A stretch of 64,000 bases of DNA, from contig NZ_JACCBN010000001.1 of the NCBI RefSeq assembly GCF_013409505.1, forward strand, positions 2,356,001-2,420,000, given 5' to 3'. Position 1 is the first letter of the stretch; every line of letters starts with the position of its first letter. Of the stretch, positions 3,609 through 57,920 are shown one piece after another. A program made the translations under genes and the position numbers. Origin of the DNA: Actinomycetospora corticicola. Its GTDB lineage: Bacteria > Actinomycetota > Actinomycetes > Mycobacteriales > Pseudonocardiaceae. The notes beneath the pieces are model-generated. The model did no database searches. It was not told the DNA's origin and worked only from the letters and a program-made list of their open reading frames with translations.

Positions 3609-5972
3609 TCACTGTGCCGGCGGCCCCGAGAACGCCCCGAGGAACCGGTCGCGGAAGGCCTCCATCGGCCACGTCGGGGCGTCCGTCGCCGGACGCAGGC
3701 CGGGCGTGAACCCCCAGGCACCGACCCGCTCGAGGACCGCCGGGTCGCGGCTGAGCACCGACAGCGGGACGTCCCGCCCGGCACCGCGCCCGGTGACCGT
3801 GAGCGCCGGCTGGTGGTCGCCCACCACGACGACGACGAGGTTCGGGTCGGCCGAGCGCTGCACCCACGAGGTGAGGGCGTCCATCGTGTAGGCCACCGAG
3901 TGCGCGTAGTCCGCACGGACCTGCGCGTCGTTGCGCCCCACGGCGCCGGGGACGGACTGCCCCCGGAACACCGAGCCGTCGCCGATCGCGTCCCAGTCGA
4001 CCATCCGCGGCAGCGGCGTCCACGGCGCGTGGCTCGACACGAGGTCGACCTCGGCCATCACCGGCCCGCGGTCGGCCCGGTCGAGCTCCATCCGCGAGAG
4101 CCGGTCCAGGACGACCTGGTCGGGCATCGACGCCCAGCCGAACGACGGCCCGCGGTAGCCGAGGTCGTGCACGGAGTACGCCCGCTGGTAGCCGTAGAAC
4201 CGGCCCTCCGGCCAGGCCCGGGTGGTGCCCGGCTGCATCGCGACCGTCTCCCACCCCGCCCGCGCGAAGGCGGCGGACAGCGTGAACCGGTCCGAGGACG
4301 TCAGCGTGAGGTAGCGCTGCTGGTTGTCCACCCGCAGCCCCGACAGCAGGGTCGCGTGCGCGAGCCAGCTGCCCGAGCCGACCACGCTCGACGTCAGGAA
4401 GCCGCTGCGGGCGCCGTAGCCCGCCCCGTCGAGCCGGGCCTGGCCAGCGTCCAGGGCGGGGTCGACCGTGCCCGCGAGGCCCGGGTCGGTGAGCGCCGAG
4501 CGGCCGTAGCTCTCCACCACGGCGACGACGACGTCCTTGCCGCGCAGCGCGCCGAGCAGGTCCGGCCCCGGCGTCGCGGCCCAGGCGTCGGTGCCCGCCT
4601 CGGCCCGGAACCGCTGGGCGTCGGCGAGCGCGGTCCGGGTCCGGTCGACGCGGTCGACCGCCGCGGCCGCCGTGGTCGCCGCCGCGACCGGGACCCCCGG
4701 CGCCGCGGTGAGCCCCGCGACCGCGCCGACGAGCCACACCCCGCCGAGCGCCGCCAGCACGCGCAGCGACCCCCGCCGGTGCCGGGCCGCGGCGCCCGCG
4801 ACCCGCCGCGCGGCGAGCCCGACGCCCCCGACGAGCACCACGGCGAGGACCACCGCGCCCACCACCGCCGCGACCTCGGCCGCCGGACCGTAGGTCGAGC
4901 CGACGAAGCCGACGCCGTCGGAGATCAGCGGGCTGTCGAGGATCGGGTCGAACGGGCGGGCCAGGACCGAGACGAACCCGACGTCGAACGCGGTGAGCAC
5001 CGCACCCAGCCCGATCGCGACCCCCGCCACGAGGGCGAGCGGCCGACGCCACCGGTCGGGCAGGAGCAGCAGCAGCGCGAGCCCGGCGATCCCCTCGATC
5101 GGCAGCCGCAGGTAGGAGCCCCACACCAGCGCCGACGGGTCCCGCGGGGCCACGAGTGCGACCGTCAGCACCAGCACGGCCAGCCCGGTCGCCAGCCCCC
5201 GCCACCACGAGAAGTCCTTCCCGACGACGGGACTGGCGCGTTCGGTCGGTCGCGGGTGGCGCGCCAGGTACTCGACCGACACCCCGAACGACCACACCAG
5301 CGCCGCGAGCGCGCCGCCGACCAGCACCGTCTCCGCCCAGCCCGGCAGGAGACGGGTGCTCGCGACCACGAGCGCGACGCCCTGCAGGGCCGCGACGACC
5401 TTGGCCGAGTACCGGGTCGGGAGCTCCCCGCGCAGCCACGGCCACACCCAACCGGCGGCGACGAACAGGTAGCGCATCCCGCCGACCAGCAGCACCCACG
5501 GCCCGAGGTCGGCCGCGACGTGCACCGCGAGCAGGAGCAGCAGGAACGCGTCGGTCTCCATGTCGAACCGCGCGCCGAGGTCGGTGCAGGTGTCGGTGCG
5601 GCGCGCGACCCACCCGTCGACCGCGTCGAGGGCGAGGGCGGTGACGGCGAGCCCGACGAGGACGGCGGTCGGGATCAGCCGGCCCGCGAGGTGCTGCACC
5701 GCGAGGGCAGTCACTCCGGCGACGAGGACCAGCCGGAGCAGCGTGACGGTGCCCGCCGGGCCGAGCGAGCGGGCCCCACTGCGCGCCAGCATCGCGAGGC
5801 CGAGGACCAGCACGAGGAGCCCCCCGAGGAGCCCGACGCCGCCCAGACCGGCCGTCGTGCGCAGGACCGCGAGCAGCCCCAGCCCGACCGCACCCGCCGT
5901 CGGGAGCTGGAGGGCGAGCGGGGGGTGCAGGACCCGCTGCGCTCGCGCGGGGGTCGCGTCTCGACCGGCCAT
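3609..5972 (-). CDS. CDP-alcohol phosphatidyltransferase fused to membrane sulfatase-superfamily domain
   Basis: 787-residue membrane protein with two enzymes in one chain. The N-terminal half carries the complete CDP-alcohol phosphotransferase signature: DG at 119-120, AR at 123-124, Gly133, Asp137 and Asp141. Many hydrophobic segments follow. From about residue 490 there is an alkaline-phosphatase-superfamily (sulfatase/LtaS-like) domain, with VVESYGRS, SSHAPWTPL and VVGDHQPA as its metal-site regions. The ATG at 5972 has GGGAGG upstream. It is divergent from the dehydrogenase operon, only 48 bp from that operon's proposed start. I infer that it makes and then modifies or trims a phospholipid-like head group; the substrate is unknown. 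Confidence 0.85.
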   Translation of the reverse strand: MAGRDATPARAQRVLHPPLALQLPTAGAVGLGLLAVLRTTAGLGGVGLLGGLLVLVLGLAMLARSGARSLGPAGTVTLLRLVLVAGVTALAVQHLAGRLIPTAVLVGLAVTALALDAVDGWVARRTDTCTDLGARFDMETDAFLLLLLAVHVAADLGPWVLLVGGMRYLFVAAGWVWPWLRGELPTRYSAKVVAALQGVALVVASTRLLPGWAETVLVGGALAALVWSFGVSVEYLARHPRPTERASPVVGKDFSWWRGLATGLAVLVLTVALVAPRDPSALVWGSYLRLPIEGIAGLALLLLLPDRWRRPLALVAGVAIGLGAVLTAFDVGFVSVLARPFDPILDSPLISDGVGFVGSTYGPAAEVAAVVGAVVLAVVLVGGVGLAARRVAGAAARHRRGSLRVLAALGGVWLVGAVAGLTAAPGVPVAAATTAAAAVDRVDRTRTALADAQRFRAEAGTDAWAATPGPDLLGALRGKDVVVAVVESYGRSALTDPGLAGTVDPALDAGQARLDGAGYGARSGFLTSSVVGSGSWLAHATLLSGLRVDNQQRYLTLTSSDRFTLSAAFARAGWETVAMQPGTTRAWPEGRFYGYQRAYSVHDLGYRGPSFGWASMPDQVVLDRLSRMELDRADRGPVMAEVDLVSSHAPWTPLPRMVDWDAIGDGSVFRGQSVPGAVGRNDAQVRADYAHSVAYTMDALTSWVQRSADPNLVVVVVGDHQPALTVTGRGAGRDVPLSVLSRDPAVLERVGAWGFTPGLRPATDAPTWPMEAFRDRFLGAFSGPPAQ

Positions 5973-6020
5973 GGAGCACGATCCTCCCCGATCCCGTGAC
6001 CCGATCGTGGTGGAGGAACT

Positions 6021-6995
6021 CTGTACTCCGCACGCACCTTTCGCGTACTCCGTCCCGGCGAGTCCGCGGTGGTCGACGTCGACCTCCCGGACCCCGGTCC
6101 CGACGACGTGGTGGTGCGGACGCGCTGGTCGGCCATCAGCCGCGGGACGGAGCTGCTCGTGTACCGGGGCGGGGTGCCGGCCGGGCAGGCCGAGCGGATG
6201 CGGGCGCCGTTCCAGGTGGGCGACTTCCCCGGGCCGGTGACCTACGGCTACCTCGCCGTGGGCGTGGTGGAGTCGGGCCCGGCGGAGCTCGTCGGGCGCG
6301 ACGTGTTCTGCCTGCACCCGCACCAGACGCGGTTCGTGGTGCCGGCGTCGGCGGTGTCGGTGGTCCCGGACGACGTACCCGCGGGGCGGGCGGTGCTGAC
6401 GGGGACGGTCGAGACCGCGGTGAACGCGCTGTGGGACGCCGGACCGCGGGTCGGCGACCGGATCGCCGTCGTCGGGGCCGGGATGGTCGGGTGCTCGGTC
6501 GCGGCGCTGCTGGCGACGATCCCGGGCGTGCGGGTGGAGCTGGTCGACGTCGACGCGTCGCGGGCGTCCGTGGCGGCGGCGCTCGGCGTCGGGTTCGCGG
6601 CCCCGGCGGACGCGCTCGGCGACTGCGACCTGGTGTTCCACACGAGCGCCACGTCCGCCGGCCTCGCCCGGTCGCTGGAACTCCTCGGCGTCGAGGGCGA
6701 GGTGATCGAGATGTCCTGGTACGGCGACCGTGAGGTGTCGGTGCCGCTCGGCGAGGGCTTCCACGCGGGGCGGCTGGCCGTCCGGTCGAGCCAGGTCGGG
6801 ATGGTCTCGGGCGCCCGGCGGGCCCGGCGCACCTACGCCGACCGGATGGCGCTCGCGCTGCGGCTGCTCGCCGACGACCGGTTCGAGGCGATCGTCACCG
6901 ACACCGTGCCCTTCGAGACGTTGCCGGAGACCATGGCGCGGCTCGCCGCCGGGGCACCCGGGCTCGCGGTGCGGGTCGACTACGGAGGAGCCTGA
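6021..6995 (+). CDS. Zinc-type medium-chain dehydrogenase (MDR superfamily)
   Basis: GroES-like N-terminal domain followed by a Rossmann fold with [10 protein letters not shown] (about residues 150-160), so an NAD(P)-dependent oxidoreductase. The classical catalytic-zinc Cys/His set is not evident; [12 protein letters not shown] replaces the usual CGTD region, as in bchC/threonine-dehydrogenase-like relatives. The start is debatable. CTG at 6021 follows GGAGGA by 4 nt and restores the first strand ([12 protein letters not shown]). The first canonical start, GTG 6069, would cut into the fold. The stop TGA shares one base with the ATG of the next gene, so this is the first gene of a coupled operon. 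Confidence 0.8.
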
Positions 6996-7393: not shown

Positions 7394-8406
7394 CGGTGCA
7401 CGTCGTCGTCCCGGACGACGTCGACACGGTCCCCAGCGGCGGCAACGTCTACGACCGCCGGGTCCTCGAGGTGTCCGGGTGGCGGGCGCTGCGGGTGCCG
7501 GTCGGGGACGGTCCGGCGCTGGGTGCGGCTCTCGCGGCGGTTCCCGACGGCGGGTCGGTGCTGGTCGACGGGCTCGTCGGCAGCCGCTTCCCGGAGGTGC
7601 TCGCACCGCACGCGGCCCGCCTGCGCGTCGTCCCGCTCGTGCACCTGCCGCTGGCCGACGAGCGCGGACTCTCCCCCGCCCGGGCCCGCGAGCTGCGCGC
7701 GCTCGAGACCGCGACCCTCGGCCACGCCACCGCCGTGGCCGCAACGAGCCGGTGGACGGCGACGCGACTCGGGGCCTTCGGCGTGGACCCCGCGGCGGTG
7801 GTCGTGGCACCGCCGGGCGCCGATCCCGCGTGCGCCGCGCCCGGATCGGCGGTGACCGGCGCGCGGCCCCACCTGCTGTGTCTCGGTGCGCTCACCCCGA
7901 CCAAGGGACAGGACCTGCTCGTCGAGGCCCTCGCCGCGGTGCGGGACCGGGACTGGACGTGCTCCCTGGTCGGGCCGGTCGACCGCGACCCGGGGTTCGT
8001 CGTCCGGCTGCGGGCGCGGGTGGTCGCGCACGGGCTGGCCGACCAGGTCACGGTGCGGGGGCCGCTCGTCGGCGGTCGCCTCGACGCGGTGTGGGCGGCG
8101 ACCGATCTGCTGGTGGTGCCGTCGCGGACCGAGACGTTCGGGATGGTGGTGACGGAGTCGCTCGCCCGGGGCATCCCGGTCCTGGCGGCCGACGTCGGCG
8201 GGATCCGCGAGGCGGGACCGACCGTCTTAGTGCCCGCTGAGAACGTTGGTGCGCTCGCCGGAACCCTGCGGGACTGGCTGGTGGACCCGGTGCGCCGGTC
8301 CGGGTGGACGCTCTCAGCGTCCGCGCGTCGGGGCAGGCTGCAGTCGTGGATCACGACCGTGCACCGGCTGCGCCCGGCGGTGGAACCCGGGCCAGGGCCC
8401 GCCTGA
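7390..8406 (+). CDS. GT4-family glycosyltransferase
   Basis: 338-residue GT-B glycosyltransferase. The C-terminal half has the donor-binding block [14 protein letters not shown] and the retaining GT4 E-x7-E motif (ETFGMVVTE) followed by [14 protein letters not shown]. The N-terminal half begins [21 protein letters not shown], a typical acceptor-domain opening. No signal or membrane segments, so it is likely cytoplasmic or peripheral. The GTG start overlaps the upstream stop as GTGA, and the stop overlaps the methyltransferase CTG as CTGA. Donor and acceptor cannot be read from sequence; neighbours suggest a lipid or pterin-related acceptor. Confidence 0.88.
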
Positions 8407-9194
8407 GCGAGCCCGGCTCCCCCGTCTGCACCCCGGACTGGCTGACGCTGCGCGAGCCCGCCGACCACGCCGCCCGGTCGGAGTCGCTCGCCGTCGAGCT
8501 GGACCGGTGGCTGGGGTCGGACGAGACGGTGGGGTCGGACGACACGGTGGTGGTGCGAGACCTCGGGTGCGGGACCGGCTCGATGGGGCGGTGGCTCGCC
8601 CCACGGCTGCGCGCGCCGCAGCAGTGGTTCGTCCACGACCGCGACGCCGATCTGGCCCGCCGGGCCGCCGCGTCGCTGCCCGTCCCGGCCACCCCCGTCG
8701 TCGGGAACGTGGAGTCGATCGACCTGACCGGGACCGACGTGGTCGTCTGCTCCGCGCTGCTCGACCTGCTCACCGCGGACGGGCTCGAGGCGCTCGTCGA
8801 CGCCTGTGCCGCGGCCGGGGCGGCGGTGCTGTTCACGCTGTCGGTGTCCGGGCGGGTCCGTTTCGACCCGGTCGATCCCGAGGACGCCCGGCTCGCGGCG
8901 GCGTTCGACGCGCATCAGCGTCGTGACCGCCTCGCGGGGCCGGACGCCGCCGACCTGGCCGCCGACGCACTCGCGCGGGCCGGGCACGTGGTCCGGCGGG
9001 AGCCGTCCCCCTGGCGGCTCGCGGGCGGGAGCGACGGCAGTCGGCCGCTCGCCGAGGAGTGGCTGCGCGGCTGGCTGGACGCCGCGGCCGTGCAGGACCC
9101 GTCGCTCGACGTGGACGGTTACCTCCCGCGGCGGCTGGCGGCGCCGTTCGCGGTCGAGGTGGGCCACACCGACGTCCTGGGGCTGCCGCGGTGA
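8403..9194 (+). CDS. Class I SAM-dependent methyltransferase
   Basis: 263 residues with SAM motif I RDLGCGTGSMGRWL (about residues 60-73) and a downstream HDRDADL acidic loop. I place the start at CTG 8403, whose last two bases plus A form the glycosyltransferase stop (CTGA). The protein then begins with the conserved stretch PDWLTLREPADHAAR, and the junction type matches its neighbours (GTGA at 7390 and 9191). Canonical starts exist at 8304 and 8346 but need 60-100 nt overlap with the glycosyltransferase. A tandem 18-bp duplication near 8511-8548 encodes GSDETV/GSDDTV. Substrate unknown. Confidence 0.8.
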   Translation: MSEPGSPVCTPDWLTLREPADHAARSESLAVELDRWLGSDETVGSDDTVVVRDLGCGTGSMGRWLAPRLRAPQQWFVHDRDADLARRAAASLPVPATPVVGNVESIDLTGTDVVVCSALLDLLTADGLEALVDACAAAGAAVLFTLSVSGRVRFDPVDPEDARLAAAFDAHQRRDRLAGPDAADLAADALARAGHVVRREPSPWRLAGGSDGSRPLAEEWLRGWLDAAAVQDPSLDVDGYLPRRLAAPFAVEVGHTDVLGLPR

Positions 9195-10964: not shown

Positions 10965-11508
10965 AGACGAGCGTGCCGGTGGCGGCCGTCGTGGCCTCGA
11001 CCAGTTCGAGGCCGCGGCTGTTCCCCGTCGTCGGGAAGATGGACTTCCCGCCGCCGAGGAGCACCGGCTCGATCATGAGGCGGTACTCGTCGACGAGGTC
11101 GGCGTCGACGAGCTCGCGGACGACCGACGGGCTGCCCATCACCAGCAGCCGCCCCTCCCCCTCGGGCAGGCGACGCGGGTCGGCGAGCACGGTCGAGTTC
11201 GCCCACGCGCTCGCGTCGGTGAGGGAGCGGCTCACGACGTACTTCGGGATGGCGTTCATGCGGTCGGCGAACGGGTCGCCGGCCTGGGCCGACCACACCG
11301 GCCCCGACACCTCCCAGGTCCGCCGACCGAACAGCATCGCGTCGGCCGAGGCGAGCGCGTCGTTCCAGGCCGCGCCCATCACCTCCGGGTCGAAGTAGCG
11401 CATCGACCAGCCGCCGTGGGCAAATCCGCCGTCACGATCCTCGTCGGGGCCGCCGGGTGCCTGGACGACGCCGTCGAGGCTGGTGAAGGCGGTGACGACG
11501 ATGTGCAT
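10945..11508 (-). CDS. RibD C-terminal / dihydrofolate-reductase-like protein
   Basis: 187 residues of the DHFR-like fold shared with the reductase domain of RibD. Visible family regions are the N-terminal VVTAFTSLDGV, the pocket segment DAMLFGRRTWE, the nucleotide-binding stretch LLVMGSPSVVREL and LIEPVLLGGGKSIF. The ATG at 11508 has GGAGG 6 nt upstream. Members are usually NADPH-dependent reductases of unknown substrate. Whether it belongs functionally with the PTPS-like cluster ending just beside it is only suggestive. It is divergent from the Imm-5-like gene. Confidence 0.85.
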   Translation of the reverse strand: MHIVVTAFTSLDGVVQAPGGPDEDRDGGFAHGGWSMRYFDPEVMGAAWNDALASADAMLFGRRTWEVSGPVWSAQAGDPFADRMNAIPKYVVSRSLTDASAWANSTVLADPRRLPEGEGRLLVMGSPSVVRELVDADLVDEYRLMIEPVLLGGGKSIFPTTGNSRGLELVEATTAATGTLVCTYRKA

Positions 11509-12108: not shown

Positions 12109-12300
12109 GGCAGCTCAGAACGGTGGGTCGTCGTCGACCGCCATGATTCGAACACTAGGACGAACCCCCGACAGTCACGGCCGAGAACGCCCACCTCGGA
12201 GGACAGCCCGAGATCACGAGATGATCACGATCCGCAGGAGCCGATCAGGAGGCCGAGCACCACTCCCGCACCGACCCGCCGTCGGGAAGACTCATGCTCG

Positions 12301-15391: not shown

Positions 15392-15580
15392 GGCCGGTCT
15401 GCCGCCCCTGTCGGCCCCCTACGCATCAGTACGGGGCGCTGACCGGGCGAAAGGGCGCAGCGGACGCGACGCAGGTCACGTTCCCGCCGGGCCTTCCCGA
15501 CGGCGGGTCGGGTCGACCGGCCGCGGCAGATGCTCGGCGATCATGACAGGGGCCGCCCGACCGGGACAGGATCACCGCTC

Positions 15581-18161: not shown

Positions 18162-18195
18162 TCCCGAGCACTCATCCCGACGACGGGTCCCGGCG

Positions 18196-21092: not shown

Positions 21093-22532
21093 CTACGGCG
21101 CGAGGGTTCCCCTCACGTGAGAGGTGACGTGGTCGGCGATCCGGGCGGCCGCGGCATCGCCGGTCGCGAGGCAGGCCGGCACGCCGACCCCGTGCAGTGC
21201 CGCACCCGCCACGGCGAGCCCGTCGGGCAGCGCCGACTCCAGGCGCGCGACCGTCCCGCCGTGCCCGACGCCGTACTGCGGCAGCCCCCCGCCCCAGCGC
21301 GCCACCACGGTCTCGAGGGGCTCCGCATGCAGGTCCAACAGTACGGCGAGGTCGGCCCGGGCGGCGGTGACGAGCTCGTCGTCGTCGCGCTGCAGCGTCT
21401 CGTTCTCCCCGAAGCGCCCGATCGAGGCCCGCACCACGACCGCGTCCTCCCCCACGAGGTGCGGCCACTTCACCGACGAGACGGTGACGGCCTTGATCGT
21501 CCACGGCGTCCCGTCCGGCCGCCGCTCCCCCGAGCCGATCAGCACCCCGGAGCGGGCGCCGAGGTCGGTGTCGGGCGGCAGGGCCAGCGCGACGACGGCG
21601 GAGGACGCGAGCTCGATGCCCGCCGCGGCCGAGGCCGCCACGGGGGCGACGTCGGCCAGCAGGCGCCGCAGGGCCGGGGCGGGCACCGCGAGCACCACGG
21701 CGTCCGCGTCGAGGACCTCGGTCCCGGCCGGTCCGGCGGCGACCACCCGCCACCCCGTCCCGTGCCGCTCCAGGGACGTCACCGTCCGGGCGAGCCGGAC
21801 GTCGGCCCGCGCCGCGACGGCCAGTGCGGGCGGGAGGTCGGCGAGCGAGGTGCGGAGCGTCCCGAACACCGGGCCGGGGAGGGTGGTGCCGGCCGGGAGC
21901 GCGGCCCGCGCGGCGGCCACGAGCGACGACGGGTCCCGGTCGAGGGCGGCGGCCAGCGCCGGCACCGTCGCGCGGATCCCGAGGGCGTCCGCGCGCCCCG
22001 AGTACACGCCGCCGAGCAGCGGGTCGACGAGCCGGTCGGCGACCTCGTCCCCGAGCCGGGCCCGGACCAGGCCGCCGACGCTGTCGTCCCCGGTCCACGT
22101 CACCGGACCGAGCTCGTCGTCGGCCGTCAGCGCCGCCCGTCCGGCGTCGGACAGCAGGCTCCCGACGGCGGGTGGGTCGGCCGGGACCCCCATCACGGTG
22201 CGCTTCGGCATCGCGTGCGTGGCGCCCCCGGCGCGGATCCCGGACGACGCCGCGGACGGGTGGACGAGGTCGTCGGCCAGCCCGAGCTCGACGAGCCGGT
22301 CGGAGGCCTCCGGACGGCGGGCGAGGAACGCCTCCGCCCCGACGTCCACCCGCAGCCCGCCGAGCTCGACCGCCGCGAGCTTGCCGCCGAGCACCCGGGT
22401 GGACTCGAGGACGACGATCTCCGCGGCGTCGCCGAGGGTCGTGCGGAGCCGGTGCGCGGCCGCGAGACCGCTCACCCCGCCGCCGACCACGACGACGCGG
22501 GGCGGGGACCCGCCGTCGGGAAGGCCGGTCAC
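21093..22532 (-). CDS. hemY: Coproporphyrinogen/protoporphyrinogen oxidase
   Basis: 479-residue FAD-dependent oxidase (HemY/CgoX type). The N-terminal dinucleotide motif [17 protein letters not shown] and downstream [12 protein letters not shown] bind FAD; the C-terminal [18 protein letters not shown] closes the FAD site. It oxidises coproporphyrinogen III to coproporphyrin III in the HemQ-dependent pathway. GTG 22532 overlaps the hemE stop as GTGA, which fixes the start. The first codons carry a copy of the dispersed 12-bp motif (22509-22520), giving LPDGG. Confidence 0.93.
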
Positions 22533-24524: not shown

Positions 24525-24577
24525 CCGCCCGCCGCGGGCGTTGCGGAGGGCGGGTGAACGCCCGACGGCGGGCGGGT
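24525..24577 (+). terminator. 19-bp GC-rich hairpin after DUF3000
   Basis: Arm 24525-24543 pairs with 24558-24577 over 19 bp with one bulged A, leaving a 14-nt loop. It lies about 150 bp past the DUF3000 stop. Its right arm contains the dispersed motif CCCGACGGCGGG. It may be a terminator or part of a structured leader. Confidence 0.5.
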
Positions 24578-25651: not shown

Positions 25652-27108
25652 GCACCGCAGCGACCCCGGAGCCCGTCGACGGGGGCGAGGAGACCGGTGA
25701 CGAGATCACCGAGCTCCTCGCCCCCGCCGACGGCGTTCCCGACCTCATCACCGATCGGGACCGCCTCTCGGCGCTCGCCGACGACCTGGCCGCGGGCAGC
25801 GGTCCGGTCGCCGTCGACGCCGAGCGGGCCTCGGGCTTCCGGTACTCCGCGCGGGCCTACCTGGTGCAGCTGCGCCGGGAGGGTGCGGGCAGTGCCCTCG
25901 TCGACCCGATCGCCCTCGACGGCGATCTCTCCCTGCTCGGCGACGCCCTGCGCGGCGTCGAGTGGGTGCTCCACGCCGCGTCGCAGGACCTGCCGTGCCT
26001 CGCCGAGGTCGGCATGCGTCCCGACGCCCTCTTCGACACCGAACTGGCCGGCCGCCTCGCGGGCTACCCGAGGGTGGGCCTCGGTCCGCTCGCCGAGCGC
26101 CTGCTCGGCGTCCACCTGCGCAAGGGCTACGGCGCCGCGGACTGGTCGACCCGCCCGCTGCCCGACGACTGGCTGGTCTACGCCGCGCTCGACGTCGAGC
26201 TCCTCGTCGAGATGCGCGACCTGCTGGCCGCCGACCTCGAGCGGCAGGGCAAGGCCGAGTGGGCCCGCCAGGAGTTCGAGGCCGTCCGCCTCGCCGGTCC
26301 GCCGCCGCGGCGCGCGGAACCCTGGCGCCGCACCTCCGGGCTGCACAAGGTGCGCCGCCCGCGCCAGCTCGCGGTGGTCCGCGCGTTGTGGGAGTCCCGC
26401 GACGAGCTCGCCGAGTCCCGCGACGTCGCCCCGGGTCGTCTGCTGCCCGACGCCGCGATCGTCGACGCCGCGCTGCGCGAGCCCGCCGACAAGGACGCGC
26501 TGACCGAGATGCCGGTGTTCCGCGGCAGCCGGCAGCGACGGCTGGCCGACCGCTGGTGGCGCGCGGTCCGGACCGGACGCGGCCTGCCGGCCGAGGACCT
26601 GCCCGACCCCTCCCCCGCCGGGGACGGTCCCCCGCCGGTGAACCGGTGGGCCGACAAGGACCCCGACGCCGCGGCACGCCTCACGGCCGCCCGCGCCCAC
26701 CTCGCCACGCTCGGCGAGCAGTGGGACACCCCGGTGGAGAACCTGCTGCAGCCCGACCTCGTCCGCCGCCTCTGCTGGACCCCTCCGGTCCCGGCCGACG
26801 CGGCGTCGGTCGAGGCGTTCCTGACGACGGGTGGTGCCCGGCCCTGGCAGCGGGAGCTCGCGCTGCCCGGGCTCGTCGCCGCGCTCGCCGAGACCGCCCC
26901 GCCCGCGGCGGCCACCCCCGCCGTCGGGAACGGGAACGGCGACGGGGACACGGCGGAGGACGCCGACGGCCCCCGTCGGTCGCCGCGTCGCCGACGACGC
27001 CGGAGCACCAGCAGCGGCGGTGCCACGGACACGGCCGGGACCGGGGACGGCGGGACGCCCGCTCAGGTCGGGACGGTCACGCCGGTGTTCAGCGACCCGG
27101 AGACCTGA
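25648..27108 (+). CDS. rnd: Ribonuclease D
   Basis: 486-residue 3'-5' exoribonuclease of the DEDD superfamily with an HRDC-type region (about 230-310). Exo motifs: Asp and Glu in VAVDAERA (about 57-61), Asp in HAASQDL, and YAALDVELL at the third motif. There is no ATG, GTG or TTG in frame from 25648 to 25863, and the first catalytic motif lies upstream of GTG 25864. The gene must therefore start at a non-canonical codon. CTG 25648 overlaps the regulator stop as CTGA and is the best candidate. The C-terminal ~70 residues are low-complexity and Arg/Ser-rich. The last 46 bp overlap the convergent sensor kinase gene. Confidence 0.88.
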   Translation: MSTAATPEPVDGGEETGDEITELLAPADGVPDLITDRDRLSALADDLAAGSGPVAVDAERASGFRYSARAYLVQLRREGAGSALVDPIALDGDLSLLGDALRGVEWVLHAASQDLPCLAEVGMRPDALFDTELAGRLAGYPRVGLGPLAERLLGVHLRKGYGAADWSTRPLPDDWLVYAALDVELLVEMRDLLAADLERQGKAEWARQEFEAVRLAGPPPRRAEPWRRTSGLHKVRRPRQLAVVRALWESRDELAESRDVAPGRLLPDAAIVDAALREPADKDALTEMPVFRGSRQRRLADRWWRAVRTGRGLPAEDLPDPSPAGDGPPPVNRWADKDPDAAARLTAARAHLATLGEQWDTPVENLLQPDLVRRLCWTPPVPADAASVEAFLTTGGARPWQRELALPGLVAALAETAPPAAATPAVGNGNGDGDTAEDADGPRRSPRRRRRRSTSSGGATDTAGTGDGGTPAQVGTVTPVFSDPET

Positions 27109-33190: not shown

Positions 33191-34494
33191 GGGGCCTCTT
33201 CAGCAGGGGACACGGTGGGAGCCAGAGTGTGGCCCGCCGCCACGACGGCCGCGAGCAGGGCGCGTGCGACCTCGCCCACCATCGCGTCGTCGGGCGAGAA
33301 GCCGGGGTGGTGCAGGCCGGGGGCGCTGCCGGGCTCGGCGTCGGGGTCGGCCGTGCCCACGAACAGCATCGTCGAGGGGATGTCCGCCGCCGAGTAGTGC
33401 GAGAAGTCGTCCGCCCCGCAGGAGCGGAACCCGGTGTCGAGGCGCAGGCCGGTCGGGGCCGCGCGCTCCTCGCCGCGCCGGCCGCCCAGCGTCGCGGCGA
33501 TGGCCGCGGTCAGGCGCCCGTGGTTCACGACGGCGGGCTCGTTCGGCACCACGGCCACCTCGCCCGTGCAGCCGTGGGCGGCCGCGGTGTGCTCCACGAC
33601 CTGCGTGACGGCCGCGAGGATCGCGTCCCGGTCGGCGTCGAGGGCGCGCACGGTGCCGCGCGCGGTGGCCGCGCCGGGCACGACGTTCGGGGCGGACCCA
33701 GCGGTGATCTGCCCGATCGTCACCACGCCCGCCTCGAGCGGGTTCACCCGCCGGGCCACGATCTGCTGCAGGGCGACGACGACCGCGGCGACGGCGAGGA
33801 CCGGGTCCCGGGTGCGGTGCGGGTATCCGCCGTGCCCCGCGCGCCCGGTGACCGTGATCTCGATCTCGTCGGCCGAGGCGTTCACCGGACCGGGCCGGGC
33901 GGACACGACCCCGCGCGGCAGCTCGGGCTGGACGTGCACGCCGAGCATCGCGGCGGGCGCGTGCGCGCGGAACGCGGGCTCGACCACGACGTCGGCGGCC
34001 CCGCTCGGCGCCGCCTCCTCCCGCGGCTGGAACACCGCGAGCAGCGGGGCGGCGAGCAGATCGGGACCGGCCGCCTCGACCGCCCGCACGACGGCGACGA
34101 GGGCGGCGGTGTGCACGTCGTGGCCGCACACGTGCGCGGCGCCGTCGCGGCGCGAGGCGAACTCCAGCCCGGTGTCCTCCCGGACGGGCAGGGCGTCGAG
34201 CTCGCCCCGCACGGCGACGGCGGGGCCCGTCCCCCCGAGCCGCAGCATGCCGCCGGTCCCGGCGACGGGTTCGAGGTCGTGGCCCAGCGCGGCCGCCACC
34301 GCGTCGCGCGAGTCGGCCTCGTCACCGGAGACCCGCGGCTCGCGGTGCAGCGCGTGGCGCAGCGCGACCGCGCCCGGGAGCTCCGTCTCGAGGGCCTCGA
34401 CCAGGGCGGCCGGGACCGGCACCGGGCGCGCAGCCCGCACCGGCCCGGCGTCGGGAACCTGCAGATCCCCGGAGATCGGCACCTCCACCGTCAC
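33187..34494 (-). CDS. M20-family amidohydrolase
   Basis: 435-residue zinc-dependent peptidase/amidohydrolase of the M20D (aminoacylase/hippurate hydrolase) type. Metal-site motifs: GHDVHTAAL, catalytic Glu pair in FQPREEAAPSG, and His in GYPHRTRDP; the family's TAGSAPNVVPG is intact. Probably cleaves N-acyl amino acids or related amides in the cytoplasm. GTG 34494 overlaps the upstream amidohydrolase stop (GTGA), and its stop overlaps the next start, so three genes form a coupled run. A variant of the dispersed motif (34444-34455) lies near the N-terminus. Confidence 0.9.
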   Translation of the reverse strand: MTVEVPISGDLQVPDAGPVRAARPVPVPAALVEALETELPGAVALRHALHREPRVSGDEADSRDAVAAALGHDLEPVAGTGGMLRLGGTGPAVAVRGELDALPVREDTGLEFASRRDGAAHVCGHDVHTAALVAVVRAVEAAGPDLLAAPLLAVFQPREEAAPSGAADVVVEPAFRAHAPAAMLGVHVQPELPRGVVSARPGPVNASADEIEITVTGRAGHGGYPHRTRDPVLAVAAVVVALQQIVARRVNPLEAGVVTIGQITAGSAPNVVPGAATARGTVRALDADRDAILAAVTQVVEHTAAAHGCTGEVAVVPNEPAVVNHGRLTAAIAATLGGRRGEERAAPTGLRLDTGFRSCGADDFSHYSAADIPSTMLFVGTADPDAEPGSAPGLHHPGFSPDDAMVGEVARALLAAVVAAGHTLAPTVSPAEEAP

Positions 34495-35684: not shown

Positions 35685-36941
35685 TCAGGTCCGATTCGAC
35701 GGGTCGAGCTCCGCTGCGCTCCGTCTCCGTACGAGGGTCGCCACGCACTCCACGTGGTGGGTCATCGGGAAGGCGTCGAACACCCGCAGGCGCTCGAGGG
35801 TGTAGCCGGCCTCCGCCAGCGCGGCGACGTCGCGGGCCAGGGCGGCCGGGTCGCACGCGACGTGCACGATCCGGCGGGCGCCGACGGCCCCGATCCGGCC
35901 GGCGAGCTCGCGGCCCAGGCCCTTGCGGGGCGGGTCGGCCACGATGACGTCGGGCGGGGTGGTGCGAGCCAGGGAGTCCAGCACCTTCTCCACGCGCCCG
36001 CGGACGACGCGGGCCGCCGGGAGGTCGGCGAGGTTCTCCCCCGCCGCGGCGGTCGCGTCCGGGTCGGACTCGACGATCGAGACGTCGCCCGCCCGGTCGG
36101 CGAGCGCCGCGGCGATCAGCCCGGCGCCGCCGTAGAGGTCCCAGACGACGTCGTCGGCGCCGAGCTCGCCGACGCCCTCGACCGCGGCCGAGACGACCGC
36201 GTCCGCGGCGCCGGGGTGGACCTGCCAGAACGCGGGCGCGGGCAGCGCCCAGTCCCGGCCGGCGGCGTGCTCGTGGGCCGTCCCCGACCCGATCTCGAGC
36301 CGCCGCGTCCCCTCGAGGAGCTCGGTCGCGTGCGTCTCACCGGCCGCGTCGGCGACGATCTCGATCTCCGCCGTGGGCGTCCACGTCCGCGCGACGACGG
36401 GGTCGAGGGCGCCGCGGACCGCGATCGGGCAGTCGCCGACCGGCAGCACCTCGTGGCTGCGGTGCGCCCGCAGGCCGGGGCGGCCGTCGTCGGTCACCGC
36501 CATGCGCATCCGGGTCCGCCAGCCGAGCGGGCCGCCGGGCAGGGCCTCGCAGACCACGTCGCGCTCGATCCCGGCGAGGCGGGAGAGCTGCTCGGCGACC
36601 ACCGCCGCCTTGAGGTCGCGCTGGGTGTCGTGGTCGGCGTGCTGCCAGTCGCAGCCGCCGCACCCGCCGGGTCCGGCCCACGGGCAGGCCGGGGTGACCC
36701 GGCCCGGGGCCGCGTCGAGCACCGTCACCGCGTCGGCCCGGCAGAACGACCCGCCGTGGTCCTCGGTGACGACCGCGTGCACCCGCTCCCCGGGCAGCGC
36801 GTGCCGGACGAACACGACCCGTCCCTCGTGACGGGCCACGCAGTGCCCGCCGTGGGCCACCGCCCCCACCTCGAGGTCGAGCATCCGGTCGGTCCAGTCG
36901 GGCCGCTCCGGCGCACCCGTCGTCGGGATGGAGGCGCTCAT
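35685..36941 (-). CDS. TrmA/RlmCD-type RNA (uracil-5-)-methyltransferase
   Basis: 418-residue SAM-dependent RNA methyltransferase. N-terminal TRAM domain (about 17-75), Cys-rich ACPWAGPGGCGGCDW suited to a 4Fe-4S cluster, SAM-binding VWDLYGGAGLIAAALA, DPPRKGL, and catalytic Cys in VHVACDPAALARDV. The target is probably uridine in 23S rRNA or tRNA. ATG 36941 overlaps the permease stop as ATGA. A dispersed-motif copy (36916-36927) lies in the first codons. Confidence 0.9.
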   Translation of the reverse strand: MSASIPTTGAPERPDWTDRMLDLEVGAVAHGGHCVARHEGRVVFVRHALPGERVHAVVTEDHGGSFCRADAVTVLDAAPGRVTPACPWAGPGGCGGCDWQHADHDTQRDLKAAVVAEQLSRLAGIERDVVCEALPGGPLGWRTRMRMAVTDDGRPGLRAHRSHEVLPVGDCPIAVRGALDPVVARTWTPTAEIEIVADAAGETHATELLEGTRRLEIGSGTAHEHAAGRDWALPAPAFWQVHPGAADAVVSAAVEGVGELGADDVVWDLYGGAGLIAAALADRAGDVSIVESDPDATAAAGENLADLPAARVVRGRVEKVLDSLARTTPPDVIVADPPRKGLGRELAGRIGAVGARRIVHVACDPAALARDVAALAEAGYTLERLRVFDAFPMTHHVECVATLVRRRSAAELDPSNRT

Positions 36942-40514: not shown

Positions 40515-40955
40515 ATGGTCACGTTGCCGGGCGGCCGGAGCGTCGGGGCGCGGTCCCTGCGGGTGCCGCCCCCGGAGCCGCCGGCCTTCGGCCTCTACCT
40601 CGGGTCGGCCCGCGCGGCCCGTCGTCGGGACGCGGGCATGACCTGGCCGCGGCGCTGGCTCGTCTGGCCGGACTTCCGCACGCCGCGCCATCCCGACGAG
40701 GCGCGGGCCGCGATCGCGGCGCTGTACGAGCGGGCCGCCACCGAGGCCGTCGAGGTCGCCTGCGGCGGCGGGATCGGGCGGACGGGCACCGTCCTCGCGT
40801 GCGTCGCGACGCTGGACGGGCTGGGCCCGGACGAGGCCGTGGCCTGGGTCCGGGCGCACCACCACCGGCGTGCGGTGGAGACGCCGGGCCAGCGACGGTG
40901 GGTGCGGTGGTTCGCGGACGGGTTCGCCGACGGGTTCGCGGAACGGCCCCGGTAG
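40515..40955 (+). CDS. Small protein-tyrosine-phosphatase-like protein
   Basis: 146 residues with the C-x5-R phosphatase loop CGGGIGRTGT (about 77-86), typical of dual-specificity/PTP-like enzymes; the Cys is the nucleophile and the Arg binds phosphate. The usual HC is AC here. An upstream general-acid Asp could be in WPDFRTPRHPDEA. ATG 40515 is the start I prefer. The C-terminus carries a short repeat (FADGFADGFAE). First gene of the interval that interrupts the conserved trkA-DUF3159 order. Confidence 0.78.
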   Translation: MVTLPGGRSVGARSLRVPPPEPPAFGLYLGSARAARRRDAGMTWPRRWLVWPDFRTPRHPDEARAAIAALYERAATEAVEVACGGGIGRTGTVLACVATLDGLGPDEAVAWVRAHHHRRAVETPGQRRWVRWFADGFADGFAERPR

Positions 40956-41372: not shown

Positions 41373-43034
41373 GTGCCCGAGCGACGCGTGAGAGGGAGCG
41401 CAGCGGAGCCCGATCGTCGACGCCGCTGGTCCCTGCACCCGCTCGGGCTGACGCTCGGGGTCGGGCTCGCGACGCTCGCCTGCACGCCGACGCTGATCCC
41501 GCGCACCGGGTTCTTCCAGGGCCTCGTCAGCGGCGTCATGCTCGCGGCGGGCTACCTGCTCGGCGTCGTGCTCGCCCGGCTCGGCCGCCGGCGGTGGTCC
41601 CGCCCCTCCCCCACGGCCCGTGCGGTCGGGTGGGTGCTGCTCGCGATGCTGCTCGTGCCCGTCGTCGTGCTGGCGCTGCGGTACGGCTACCGGGAGCAGG
41701 TCGCGCAGGCGGCGTTGCTCGGGGTCCGGCCGCCGACGGTCGCCGCCTGGCTGCTCGCGGTACCGGTCGCGGTGGCCGTGCTCGCGGTGCTGGTGGCGAT
41801 CGTGCGGGGTGTCCGGGCGCTGCCCCGGTGGCCACGGCGGGTCGTGGTGGGGCTCGGCGTCGTGGTGCTCGCGCTGGCGCTGGTGTCGATCGCCGGCATC
41901 CCGGGTGTGAACCCGGCCCGCGCGGCGCTCGACCCGGCCTTCGCGGCCCAGGACGCGGGGGTGTTCGGCGGCGCCACGCAGCCCACCTCCCCGCTGCGCT
42001 CCGGGTCGCCCGCCTCGGCGCTGAGCTGGGAGTCGTTGGGGCGCGGCGGGCGCACGTTCGTCTCGTCCGGCCCTCCTGCGGCGGCGCTCGCGGCCGCCTC
42101 CGGGCGACCCGCCGTCGAGCCGATCCGGGTGTACGTCGGGCTCGGGAGCTCCTCCGACGCGGGTGAACGGGCCCGGCTCGCCGTCGACGAGCTGCGCCGG
42201 ACCGGCGCGTTCGACCGGCCCGTGATCGCCGTCCTGACGACGACGGGCACCGGCTTCGTCGACGCCGAGGCCGTCGACGCCCTGGAGCTCGCCTGGGGCG
42301 GGGACACCGCCGTCGTCACCAGCCAGTACTCCCTCATGCCGAGCGCCCTGTCGCTGCTGCTCGACGGCGACCGGGTGGCCGCCGCGGGCACGACGATGTA
42401 CGACGCCGTGCGGTCCGCGGTCGACACGCTCCCGCCCGGCCGGCCGCGGCCGCGGGTGGTCGTGTTCGGCGAGTCCCTGGGCGCGCTGGGCTCGCAGGCG
42501 GCGTTCGCCTCGGTCGACCAGGTCCGCGACGGCGCCCTGTGGAACGGCCCGCCGAACTCCTCGCCGCTGTGGCGCTCCCTCGTCGCGGGCCGGGACCCCG
42601 GCACCCGGGAGGTCCGACCCGTCGTCGGGAACGGGGAGCGGGTGCGGTTCGGCGGGGGCTCCGCCACCCCCGTCCTGACGACGAGCCCTCCCGCCCCCTG
42701 GCCCGCGCCGCGCACGGTCTACCTGCAGCACCCGAGCGACCCGGTGGTGTGGTGGTCCCCACGGCTGCTGTTCCAACGGCCGGACTGGCTCGCCGAACCG
42801 CACGGTGACGACGTGCTGCCGAGCGTGCGCTGGTACCCGCTCGTGACGTTCTGGCAGGTCACGATGGACATGATCCGCGCGCAGGAGGTGCCGTTCGGGC
42901 ACGGCCACAACTACGGGCCGGAGTCCCTGGACGCGTGGATGGACGTCGTCCCGCCGCCGGGCTGGACCCCGGCCGACACCGCCCGCGTGCACGCCGTGCA
43001 GGAGGCGGGCGGGCTCCCGACGCCGGGGGCCTAG
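41373..43034 (+). CDS. Membrane-anchored alpha/beta hydrolase (Abhydrolase_9 type)
   Basis: 553 residues: four to five transmembrane helices in the first ~190 residues, then an extracellular-type alpha/beta-hydrolase domain with nucleophile Ser in VVFGESLGALGSQ and a late His in GHGHNYGPESLD that fits the catalytic His. Homologues in actinobacteria are of unknown substrate; lipid or wax ester hydrolysis is a guess. GTG 41373 is a typical start; a second GTG near 41387 is less likely. The last codons carry a variant of the dispersed motif (43016-43027). Confidence 0.82.
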   Translation: MPERRVRGSAAEPDRRRRWSLHPLGLTLGVGLATLACTPTLIPRTGFFQGLVSGVMLAAGYLLGVVLARLGRRRWSRPSPTARAVGWVLLAMLLVPVVVLALRYGYREQVAQAALLGVRPPTVAAWLLAVPVAVAVLAVLVAIVRGVRALPRWPRRVVVGLGVVVLALALVSIAGIPGVNPARAALDPAFAAQDAGVFGGATQPTSPLRSGSPASALSWESLGRGGRTFVSSGPPAAALAAASGRPAVEPIRVYVGLGSSSDAGERARLAVDELRRTGAFDRPVIAVLTTTGTGFVDAEAVDALELAWGGDTAVVTSQYSLMPSALSLLLDGDRVAAAGTTMYDAVRSAVDTLPPGRPRPRVVVFGESLGALGSQAAFASVDQVRDGALWNGPPNSSPLWRSLVAGRDPGTREVRPVVGNGERVRFGGGSATPVLTTSPPAPWPAPRTVYLQHPSDPVVWWSPRLLFQRPDWLAEPHGDDVLPSVRWYPLVTFWQVTMDMIRAQEVPFGHGHNYGPESLDAWMDVVPPPGWTPADTARVHAVQEAGGLPTPGA

Positions 43035-45600: not shown

Positions 45601-46593
45601 GTGGTGCGTAGATCGCTCGTCGCCGTCGTCGCCGTGCTCGTCGCCCTCCTCGCCGGCTGTTCCGGCGGGGAGCAGCCGGCCGGCGCCCCTGGCGCTCCGG
45701 CCGGGGACGGGACCTTCCCCGTCACCGTGCCGACCGCCTTCGGCGACGTGACCGTCCCGCAGGCACCGCAGCGGGTGGTCGCCCTCGGCTGGAGCGACGC
45801 CGAGACCGCCCTGGCGCTCGGCGTCCAGCCTGTCGGCGCGTCGGACTGGCTCGCCGTCGGCGGCGACGGCCTCGGCCCGTGGGTGACCCAGCGCTACACG
45901 ACGCCGCCGCAGAAGCTCGGCACGCTGGAGGTCGACCTCGAGCAGGTCGCCGCCCTGCAGCCCGACCTCATCCTCGACACCCGCGCGTCGGGCACCCGGG
46001 AGCGGCACGACCAGCTCGCCCAGCTCGGGGTTCCCGTCGTCGGGATCCCGGCCGGCGGCGAGAACTACCTGACGCCGTGGCGCGACCAGCTCCGGATGGT
46101 CGGCGCGGCGCTCGGGAAGTCCCAGGAGGCCGCCCGCCTGCAGTCCGAGCTGGAGAACCGCTTCGCGCAGGCCCGGCAGCAGAATCCGGCCCTGAACGGC
46201 GCGACCGTCGTCTCCGGCGCCAAGAACACGCTCGGCGAGTACGCGGCGTACGTCGGCCGGACCGGCCGTGTCGAGTTCCTGCGGGAGCTCGGGCTCGTGA
46301 ACTCCCCGGCGGTCGAGGCCGTCCCGACGGAGAACTTCTCGGTGCCCGTCAGCCGCGAGCGGATGAACCTGCTCGACGCCCGCGTGACGATCATGCAGGC
46401 GATCAGCGGCAACGCCGCCGACATCACGGGCGACCCGCTCTGGGGCACCGTGCCGTCCGTCGCCGCGGGCCGCGGGATCGTGCTCGACGACCAGGCACTG
46501 TCGAACGCGTTCGCCAGCTCCTCGGTGCCGGGCCAGCTCTACGCCCTGGACCGCATGGTCGCGCCGATCGCCGCGGCGGTCGCCAAGCCGTGA
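45601..46593 (+). CDS. Ferric-siderophore ABC transporter, substrate-binding lipoprotein
   Basis: 330 residues of the FepB/FhuD/BtuF class III binding-protein fold. Lipoprotein signal: AVVAVLVALLAGC with lipobox LAGC. It then has PQRVVALGWSDAETALALGVQPVGASD, PDLILDTRASGTRERHDQLAQLGVPVVGIPAG and the two-lobed class III pattern. It should capture ferric siderophore outside the membrane. GTG 45601 (or GTG 45604) follows AAAGG. IdeR box upstream. Its stop TGA overlaps the first GTG of a chain of nested short frames leading to the permease. Confidence 0.9.
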   Translation: MVRRSLVAVVAVLVALLAGCSGGEQPAGAPGAPAGDGTFPVTVPTAFGDVTVPQAPQRVVALGWSDAETALALGVQPVGASDWLAVGGDGLGPWVTQRYTTPPQKLGTLEVDLEQVAALQPDLILDTRASGTRERHDQLAQLGVPVVGIPAGGENYLTPWRDQLRMVGAALGKSQEAARLQSELENRFAQARQQNPALNGATVVSGAKNTLGEYAAYVGRTGRVEFLRELGLVNSPAVEAVPTENFSVPVSRERMNLLDARVTIMQAISGNAADITGDPLWGTVPSVAAGRGIVLDDQALSNAFASSSVPGQLYALDRMVAPIAAAVAKP

Positions 46594-47681: not shown

Positions 47682-48751
47682 CGGGGACGGAGCGCACCGG
47701 AGCTCGACCCGACGGGGCCGCGGCCCTGCAGGAGGCCCGGGCCCGGTCCCGACGACGGGTCGGGGTGGCCGGGGCGGTCCTCGCCGCCGCCGTGGTGGTC
47801 GCGTTCCTGGCGACCATCTCGCTCGGCGACTACCCGATCGCCCCGGGCGAGCTGCTGCCGTCGCTGGTCGGGAGCGGACCGGCCCGCGTCGAGTTCGTGG
47901 TCACCCGGCTCCGGCTGCCCCGTGCCCTGGCCGGGCTCGCCGTGGGCGCCGCCCTCGGCCTCGCGGGCGCGCTCTTCCAGCGGCTGCTCCGCAACCCCCT
48001 CGCCAGCCCGGACGTGATCGGCGTCGGGGCGGGCGCGAGCGCGGCCGCGGTCACGGCGTTCACCGTGTTCGGGCTGTCCGGGGCCGGGGTGTCCGCGGCC
48101 GCCGTGCTCGGGGCCGCCGGCACCGCCACCGCGATCGTGCTCCTCGCCCGCCGCGGGCGGGCCGGGGGCAGCGGCCTGCACGGCGTGCGGTTCGTGCTGA
48201 TTGGGGTGGGCCTCGGCTCCGCCCTGCTCGCGGTCGTGTCCTGGCTCATGACGACGGCGTCGCTGACCACCGCCCAGCAGACCCTGCTCTGGCTCACCGG
48301 CAGCCTGAACAACGTCACGTGGGCGGCGACGACCCCGCTCCTCGTGGCCGTCGCGGTCCTCCTCCCGGCGGCGTTCGTGGCCGCCCGGGCCCTGCCCCGG
48401 CTCGAACTGGGCGACGAGACGGCAGCGGCGCTGGGCCTGCCGGTGGAGCGCGCCCGCCTCGCGCTGCTCGCGGTCGGCGTACTCCTGGTGGCCGCAGCGG
48501 TCGCCGTCGCGGGGCCGGTGTCGTTCGTCGCGCTGGTCGCCGGGCCGGTGGCCGCCCGCCTCGCGGGTCCCGGTCGGTCGTCGCTGCCGCACGCCGCCCT
48601 CGTCGGCGCCCTGCTCCTGCTGGCCGCCGACCTCGTCGCCCGCCACCTGATCGGCGACGTCCCCCTCCCGGTCGGCGTCGTCACCGGCGTCGTCGGCGCG
48701 CCCTACCTGTTGTGGCTGCTGGCCCGGTCACGGACCCGAGGAGCGACATGA
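47678..48751 (+). CDS. FecCD-type siderophore ABC permease (second)
   Basis: 357 residues, second BtuC-fold permease: RLRLPRALAGLAVGAALGLAGALFQRLLRNPLASPDVIGVGAGASAAAV and, near the end, GPVSFVALVAGPVAARLAGPGRSSLPHAALVGA. GTG 47678 overlaps the preceding stop (GTGA), and its stop overlaps the ATPase ATG (ATGA). A dispersed-motif copy (47748-47759) lies in the hydrophilic N-terminus. Confidence 0.92.
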   Translation: MTGTERTGARPDGAAALQEARARSRRRVGVAGAVLAAAVVVAFLATISLGDYPIAPGELLPSLVGSGPARVEFVVTRLRLPRALAGLAVGAALGLAGALFQRLLRNPLASPDVIGVGAGASAAAVTAFTVFGLSGAGVSAAAVLGAAGTATAIVLLARRGRAGGSGLHGVRFVLIGVGLGSALLAVVSWLMTTASLTTAQQTLLWLTGSLNNVTWAATTPLLVAVAVLLPAAFVAARALPRLELGDETAAALGLPVERARLALLAVGVLLVAAAVAVAGPVSFVALVAGPVAARLAGPGRSSLPHAALVGALLLLAADLVARHLIGDVPLPVGVVTGVVGAPYLLWLLARSRTRGAT

Positions 48752-50155: not shown

Positions 50156-50992
50156 TCAGGCGGGGGCGGCGTCCTGGGTCGCGGCCTCGGCCTTCGCCGC
50201 CTCGGTGGCCCGGCGGATCGCCCACACGGTCACGGCGGCGGCCAGCAGCGCGAGCGGCACCCCCATCGCGAGGCGCACCCAGCCGAGCCAGGTGTCGGCG
50301 TAGGCCGAGTCGTAGAGCCAGCGCTGCACCGCGAACCGCGCCCCGAACACGACCACCCAGGCGAGCGTCGCGAGGTCGTAGGCCCGCAGCAGGGACGGCG
50401 ACCGGCGCCAGCCCTGACCGTCGCCGTTGACCAGGTGCCACAGCACCCCGACCAGCGGGCGGCGGACCAGTACCGACACCAGGAACACCCCGCCGTAGAC
50501 GAGGCTCGTCCAGATCCCGAGCAGGAAGAAGCCCTTGGCCTCCCCCGTGCGCCAGGCGATCACGGCGCAGACGGCGACGCCGAAGAGCCCGGACAGCGCG
50601 GGTTGGACCTTCTCCCCGCGGACCAGCCGCCAGATCGCGACGGCCACGGCCGAGGCGACGGCCGCGACGATGGAGGCGACGAGGTTCTTGAACACGGCCT
50701 GGACCAGCACGAACACCACCACGGGCACCGCCGAGGTGATCACCCCGGCGACCCCGCCCATCTGCTCGAGCAGGGTGGGGCTGCGCTCCTCGGCGGCCTC
50801 CTCCGGCGCCTCGGGGGCCTCGGGCGCCGGCGGCACCGGTCCACCCGGCCCGACGACGGGCGCGGTCGGGGCGTCCGGCCGGACCGGGGCGAAGGCGACG
50901 GTGGGCGGCTCGGCGGGACCGGGAGGGCTCGCCGGTCGGCCGGTCGGGCGTCCGGCGGAGTGTCGGGGGGTGATGGCGGGTGCTCCTGTCAG
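50156..50992 (-). CDS. DUF3159 membrane protein
   Basis: Up to 278 residues: Pro/Ala-rich hydrophilic N-terminus (about 1-75), then a DUF3159 domain with five or so membrane helices (LLEQMGGVAGVITSAVPVVVFVLVQ to LAMGVPLALLAAAVTVW). Start uncertain. CTG 50992 overlaps the OB-gene stop as CTGA; GTG 50836 is the first canonical start that retains the domain. The domain call is firm. Order DUF3159-OB-DUF3710-dut matches the mycobacterial core, and this gene marks re-entry into it after the accessory interval. Confidence 0.82.
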   Translation of the reverse strand: MTGAPAITPRHSAGRPTGRPASPPGPAEPPTVAFAPVRPDAPTAPVVGPGGPVPPAPEAPEAPEEAAEERSPTLLEQMGGVAGVITSAVPVVVFVLVQAVFKNLVASIVAAVASAVAVAIWRLVRGEKVQPALSGLFGVAVCAVIAWRTGEAKGFFLLGIWTSLVYGGVFLVSVLVRRPLVGVLWHLVNGDGQGWRRSPSLLRAYDLATLAWVVVFGARFAVQRWLYDSAYADTWLGWVRLAMGVPLALLAAAVTVWAIRRATEAAKAEAATQDAAPA

Positions 50993-53960: not shown

Positions 53961-53967
53961 GCCGGGC

Positions 53968-56296: not shown

Positions 56297-56384
56297 CCTG
56301 CGAGTTCTCCCCGACGACGGGTGGTCCACCCCGCCACGACGTCGCGGGAGCTGTGAGGTACGGGCGCCGGTCACCCGGCGTCGT

Positions 56385-56531: not shown

Positions 56532-57902
<1,371 letters not shown>

Positions 57903-57908
57903 ATCCTT

Positions 57909-57920
57909 CCCGACGACGGG
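57909..57920. repeat. Dispersed 12-bp motif CCCGACGACGGG (representative copy)
   Basis: One of at least 23 copies found by eye. Exact CCCGACGACGGG (or reverse complement) begins at 5220, 8694, 11024, 18176, 31917, 36916, 40618, 42618, 46033, 47748, 50849, 56310 and 57909. CCCGACGGCGGG begins at 5893, 7543, 12275, 15496, 22161, 22509, 24562 and 26917. CCCGACGCCGGG begins at 34444 and 43016. Most are preceded by TT or T on the motif strand. Six are intergenic and many others fall in hydrophilic protein termini. Confidence 0.8.

Follow-up and report, generated by a model that had tools for sequence, protein, structure and literature searches.

A 12-base near-palindrome, CCCGACGACGGG, recurs throughout a 64,000-base stretch of the chromosome of Actinomycetospora corticicola, a member of a genus of soil bacteria, and we give an even chance to the reading that it is a tag of self DNA resembling an uptake sequence. 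This stretch (hereafter the window) comprises bases 2,356,001-2,420,000 of a single 6,166,488-base contig (genome G000). The original prediction, which drew attention to the motif, had offered a protein-binding, uptake-like, chromosome-organising or small mobile sequence as possible explanations, and the uptake-like option best fits the whole pattern described below. Weighing that pattern, we think the word most likely spreads through more frequent import and recombination of DNA bearing it. We do not yet class the motif as a DNA uptake sequence (DUS), whose words are likewise 12 bases long; we infer both that it has a reader and that this reader acts during import.

The window holds 13 exact copies, eight G-variants and two C-variants at position 8, in both orientations, exactly as had been counted before. 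These 23 copies run from position 5220 to position 57909, and the T-variant, which is a perfect palindrome, has no copy in the window. Markov models of orders 1-6 predict 0.04 to 2.16 exact copies, and matches with at most one mismatch number 50, against a mean of 6.97 and a maximum of 15 in 100 dinucleotide shuffles. The whole genome contains 813 exact copies (404 forward and 409 reverse) but only 14 of the reversed word (9 and 5). Other properties were studied in a 1.264 Mb sample of G000, consisting of the window and 60 stretches of 20 kb, with genes called by our own crude codon-model caller. Position 8 is A in 176 copies of this sample, G in 124, C in 57 and T in 28. The T said to precede most copies was found before 82% of the 176 exact ones; one position further out, 48% have T and 30% have G, and a T that had escaped the original prediction follows the motif in 52%. 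The fuller consensus is (C/G)(T/G)TCCCGACG[A/G]CGGGT, with a conserved flank of a few bases per side. A position weight matrix (PWM) with a threshold of at least 14 bits finds 709 sites in the sample (0.56/kb), compared with 13 for the reversed matrix, and extrapolation gives approximately 3,400 sites in the whole genome.

The excess persists when the encoded proteins and their codon usage are held constant. In 40 shuffles of synonymous codons, the exact word was expected 13.7 times in genes (maximum 20), where 134 copies are observed; the G form gives 85 vs 8.0, the C form 41 vs 5.6 and the T form 23 vs 2.0. The palindromic T form is the rarest by number, yet its enrichment over the codon shuffles is about equal to that of the A form. 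Because the copies fill all six frame and orientation classes and synonymous shuffling loses approximately 90% of them, protein selection is no explanation, as had been claimed. A genome-wide count had been proposed as the check on composition, and the reversed-word count together with the codon shuffles refutes composition or codon usage as the cause. GC content was rejected as the cause of the uneven density along the genome (Spearman 0.42 for strict A/G sites and 0.27 for PWM sites). When genes were divided into octiles of codon typicality, the lowest density (0.345/kb) fell in the least typical genes, with control words flat; the motif per control word was equally low in octile 6.

We surveyed the exact 12-mer in 61 genomes, 18 from Actinomycetospora and 43 from outside the genus. 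Five core species carry 813, 743, 661, 592 and 499 copies, three sparser members of the genus 218, 174 and 102, and the remaining ten 19-43, while each genome outside the genus has at most 19. Counts of TCCCGACGRCGGGT are 703, 636, 735, 595 and 613 in the five core species, 117, 103 and 43 in the three sparser ones and 0-5 in the other ten (the 102 and the 43 stem from one genome that is 59% complete); no more than 4 occur in any of 295 further Actinomycetes drawn evenly from a larger group. Elsewhere in the genus, PWM density falls from 0.36-0.44/kb (three further core species) through 0.09-0.12/kb (two sister species) to 0.03-0.035/kb (three poor species). Across one 12 kb region, identity of the best DNA matches is 82-87% for the four other core species, 79% for G015 and 78% for G009. 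Given this order of identities, the distribution looks like a gain in one eight-species branch, denser in its inner part. A single genus spans species in which the word is near-absent (ten), sparse (three) and dense (five); therefore, the rise of the word could be traced, and its reader could be sought, among close relatives.

To judge from the alignments, substitution gave rise to the majority of the coding sites aligned. When coding sites of four core species were aligned to sister species, 146 of 176 comparisons were ungapped (flanks 1135/1225), as were 154 of 252 against poor species (flanks 1512/1722); the window sites 46033 and 22161 are examples of substitution. Because most aligned coding sites are ungapped, a mobile element is unlikely, and the suggestion of a small mobile sequence finds no support at most coding sites, although gaps there exceed those of the flanks. 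Conservation of individual sites in relatives had been named as a further check, and sites are indeed better kept than flanks. Between core species, 201 of 332 ungapped coding comparisons show the same 12-mer, against 544 of 2317 for the flanks (33 of 365 were gapped and set aside), as do 46 of 95 intergenic ones, against 57 of 323 (9 of 104 set aside); pairs were compared both ways, and these counts are thus not independent. The strict A/G word is kept at 67 of 104 coding sites, against 90 of 320 composition-matched words, and at 2 of 92 coding sites outside the core. Towards outside species, the amino acid identity of the motif codons is 61-70%, compared with 73-82% nearby, partly because of ascertainment, the sites having been picked where the word exists.

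The sites favor the ends of genes. Intergenic sequence, where 13% of the bases lie, holds 155 of the 709 PWM sites and 54 of 147 TCCCGACGRCGGGT sites; the other 93 (63%) are in genes, where the coding fraction is 87%. In the window, our crude caller places 9 of the 23 copies, and 5 of the 13 exact ones, between genes, a small difference from the six counted before. Position relative to gene ends, which had also been suggested for checking, gives a clear peak: PWM sites reach 3.23/kb within 20 bases behind stop codons and still 2.13/kb over the following 20, vs about 0.5/kb in genes. Control words made by shuffling the letters have no peak after stops (0.47 and 0.68/kb vs 0.77/kb overall). Four inverted pairs of sites were folded, and all gave strong hairpins (-33.7 to -41.4 kcal/mol). 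Stems of at least 14 pairs were formed by none of 120 sampled coding sites.

Along the chromosome, we took the origin to be at dnaA (4,537,604) and assumed the terminus to be opposite. There is no replication polarity (372 sites along and 337 against, p 0.20) and no gradient with distance from the origin, the density being 0.40-0.75/kb in all bins; the chromosome-organising option, taken as a replication-oriented signal, is thereby not borne out. A polar signal of the Chi type or of the type of FtsK-orienting polar sequences was rejected because the sites have no orientation bias along the replichores. Regular spacing was rejected as well, since the intervals of the first 100 of 219 TTCCCGACGACGGGT sites agree with an exponential distribution (Kolmogorov-Smirnov p 0.58). 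Short-range clustering is slight, with 9.1% of intervals below 100 bases vs 6.0% expected.

Among the sampled stretches, the lowest count belongs to a prophage at 3,000,001-3,020,000, with 1 site vs 11.2 expected. Its genes include those for a terminase, a portal, a head protease and the major head and tail proteins. Its GC content is host-like (73.7%) and it has 6 control words vs about 6 expected, indicating that it is the word itself that is almost missing. The Poisson probability of 1.6e-4 overstates the case, because the prophage was chosen as the lowest stretch and the stretch counts are overdispersed (index 1.63). Another stretch, 6,100,001-6,115,105, encodes a 1457-residue TrwC-type relaxase and a phage-type integrase and is probably an integrated element; it has two motif sites, and the GC content of the whole 20 kb stretch (at 6.10 Mb) is 69.9%. 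Both were picked out after the sites had been counted.

These properties recall the uptake sequences documented in Pasteurellaceae and Neisseriaceae (PMC7811141). With the motif, the DUS of Neisseriaceae and the uptake signal sequences (USS) of Pasteurellaceae share excess, origin by substitution, lack of polarity, a preference for intergenic sequence and gene ends, and clade limits; they also form terminator pairs (PMC3630211, PMC1626085, PMC2346458, PMC1939737). DUS form inverted pairs at terminators, and their dialects follow phylogeny (PMC3630211). USS originate by substitution and not by insertion (PMC1626085); they are biased to gene ends, and their in-gene share is below the coding fraction, with 65% in open reading frames of a genome that is approximately 86% coding, a figure quoted there from an older paper (PMC2346458). 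The Actinomycetospora motif resembles the DUS so described in being a short word with hundreds to thousands of copies, both genic and intergenic, but its sequence is unrelated, its host belongs to another phylum, which lacks the Gram-negative outer membrane, no PF07963 pilins were found and inverted pairs, though clear in some cases, are few. It resembles the USS in arising by substitution, in being under-represented in genes and in its bias to gene ends, whereas motif sequence and host are unrelated and uptake is here presumed. In the actinobacterium Micrococcus luteus, transformation requires tad genes and ComEC (PMC4322843), so that an actinobacterium is transformed via Tad/Flp pili and ComEC (PMC4322843, PMC6370729). 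Actinomycetospora is of the same phylum and has homologs of TadA, ComEA and ComEC; the term "uptake sequence" is absent from PMC4322843.

The traits shared with DUS and USS, taken together with actinobacterial Tad/ComEC transformation, suggest that the word spreads through favored import and recombination. In the ancestor of the eight-species branch, a component of a DNA-import route, here the Tad/Flp pilus genes and ComEA/ComEC of the genus, would have come to prefer the word. Imported fragments bearing it would have replaced homologous chromosomal alleles, and chance base changes towards the word would thereby have spread and persisted in genic and intergenic sequence alike, with no mobile element involved. 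We hold with somewhat less than even confidence the more specific view that this is the first DNA uptake sequence in single-membrane, high-GC Gram-positive bacteria, read by Tad-pilus/ComEA transformation and with its evolution part-way within one genus.

The putative import genes are widespread in the genus. ComEC matches and T2SSE (TadA-type) ATPase matches were each found in 16 of the 18 Actinomycetospora genomes, and in each of the 15 genomes that are at least 90% complete, a single ComEC match is accompanied by a T2SSE ATPase match. The Tad locus of G000 encodes the ATPase, two T2SSF proteins, a DUF4244 protein and a Tad-domain protein, and the com locus encodes a ComEA-like protein (HHH and SLBB) and ComEC. 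The six Tad genes of G000 are all matched in four rich species and in three of four poor ones (G012 lacks the last), and ComEA and ComEC are matched in all nine genomes compared. The T2SSE match of the sister species G015 lies in two pieces approximately 57 kb apart on one strand (C9, 1,814,802-1,872,983), as if the gene had been split by a large insertion. The Tad locus of the sparse species G009 (C6) has no match to two of the G000 genes, a T2SSF-type gene and a Tad-domain gene, which may be a gene-calling miss.

Several results weigh against the uptake reading. No gene of the compared Tad and com loci tracks the presence of the motif, so the machinery found leaves the clade limit unexplained and was rejected as its cause. 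The PF07963 pilin is found in none of the 18 genomes, and a ComP-like receptor is thus not evident. Gaps are commoner at the motif than in the flanks (30/176 vs 90/1225 towards sister species and 98/252 vs 210/1722 towards poor species), which may reflect a tendency of sites to settle where the sequence is variable. Between genes, the strict A/G word is no better kept than composition-matched words (21/43 vs 22/48). Inverted pairs are few: five, 21-25 bases apart, were found in the 1.264 Mb sample, four inward and one outward, and stems of at least 14 pairs show a modest excess at intergenic sites (11/81 vs 20/250 post-stop controls). No other dialect appeared in the 250 kb of sister and 465 kb of poor species sampled. 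We found no report of competence in Actinomycetospora, no receptor, and no earlier case of an uptake sequence among bacteria with a single membrane. Among the literature matches listed, none reports an uptake sequence in Actinobacteria or Actinomycetospora, and the motif strings match only in eight papers, unrelated by title.

The protein-binding option is retained as the principal alternative, ranked below the uptake-like one. It would make the motif the site of an abundant sequence-specific chromosomal protein, acting in nucleoid structure, segregation, repair or transcription termination and maintained by ordinary selection. A near-palindromic consensus whose core is tight and whose edges are softer suits such a protein, as do sites that are conserved, favor gene ends and are spread over the whole chromosome. 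We nevertheless consider it unlikely, although a serious contender: the strong sites exceed 700, and those sampled lie mostly within genes and in all frame classes, replication polarity and an origin-distance gradient are lacking, turnover is high (131 of 332 ungapped coding comparisons of close species differ), and a prophage of like GC is nearly free of the motif.

A word generated by DNA methylation and mismatch repair, as proposed for the highly iterated palindrome HIP1 of cyanobacteria, is a distinctly weaker candidate. Like HIP1 and the alternate highly iterated palindromes (HIPs), the motif is a highly iterated, GC-rich near-palindrome limited to one lineage, and its palindromic T form is as enriched in genes as the A form. 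HIPs have been linked to methyltransferases specific for them (PMC4390886). In Actinomycetospora, however, the favored form is not a perfect palindrome, the palindrome being the rarest form (28 vs 176), and differences between sites include transversions. C5 methylases (PF00145) occur in 2 of 8 motif-rich and 4 of 10 poor genomes, and N4/N6 methylases (PF01555) in 1 of 8 and 3 of 10, one of the latter below the curated cut-off. Neither of these two families, the ones searched, tracks the motif, which makes the HIP-like reading less likely. The C5 methylase genes at G000:C1 291,217-292,230 and G014:C4 9,380-10,390 belong to two of the five core species only.

It is improbable that the motif is the recognition word of a conjugative DNA pump of the FtsK/TraB type, spread by conjugal transfer and recombination. 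TraB of Streptomyces reads short words, and the same transfer-coupled drive would be expected, but most sites stand alone, apart from the slight clustering noted above. Still more improbable is a short mobile element or a repeat like the repetitive extragenic palindromes, inserted many times. The high copy number, the hairpins behind genes and the excess of gaps at motif sites over flanks would fit, as would, for intergenic sites alone, the 38 of 50 that are gapped against sister species (flanks 68/180; 12 of 50 ungapped). Conversely, most coding sites are gapless, conservation extends just a few bases to either side of the motif, and among the best 80 of 90 viral stretches, 79 hold one match and one holds two; for coding sites, the mostly gap-free orthologs largely contradict a mobile element, and the viral stretches lend it no support. 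Composition or codon bias, suggested by the GC-rich genome and by genes rich in CGACG-type strings, has virtually no chance of making the motif, given the codon shuffles, the reversed-word count and same-genus species of the same GC content that lack it.

If the uptake reading is true, frequent self-directed gene exchange would take place in an actinobacterial lineage for which we found no report of it. If a resident DNA-binding protein is the reader instead, a protein with hundreds to thousands of sites is still to be found.

Table 1. Motif copies in the window and an overlapping hairpin, with the state of individual sites in other genomes (G numbers).
Feature	Position	Strand	Remarks
Exact motif, coding	5220..5231	+	
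G-variant, coding	5893..5904	-	
G-variant, coding	7543..7554	+	Intact in G014, G001
Exact motif, coding	8694..8705	-	
Exact motif, coding	11024..11035	-	
G-variant, intergenic	12275..12286	-	
G-variant, intergenic	15496..15507	+	
Exact motif, intergenic, stop codon 14 bases before	18176..18187	+	
G-variant, coding	22161..22172	+	Intact in G014, G001, G006; substitutions in G015, G009, G012, G010, G017
G-variant, coding by crude gene caller	22509..22520	-	
G-variant, intergenic	24561..24572	+	
G-variant, intergenic	26917..26928	-	
Exact motif, coding, gene strand reads PVVG	31917..31928	+	Intact in G014, G001
C-variant, coding	34444..34455	-	
Exact motif, coding by crude gene caller	36916..36927	-	
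Exact motif, coding	40618..40629	-	
Exact motif, coding	42618..42629	-	Intact in G014, G001, G006
C-variant, coding	43016..43027	+	
Exact motif, coding	46033..46044	-	Gapless substitutions in G014, G001, G016, G006, G015
Exact motif, intergenic	47748..47759	+	Intact in G014, G001, G016
Exact motif, intergenic	50849..50860	+	
Exact motif, intergenic, stop codon 13 bases before	56310..56321	+	
Exact motif, intergenic, stop codon 6 bases before	57909..57920	+	
Terminator-like hairpin; 5' arm includes 10/12 bases of the motif at 57909	57904..57955	+	-47.1 kcal/mol, z -7.1

Outside the window, the sampled stretch at contig positions 1-20,000 contains a segment of low GC content (stretch positions 2200-9162), with no called gene across 7 kb, that is perhaps an rRNA operon.

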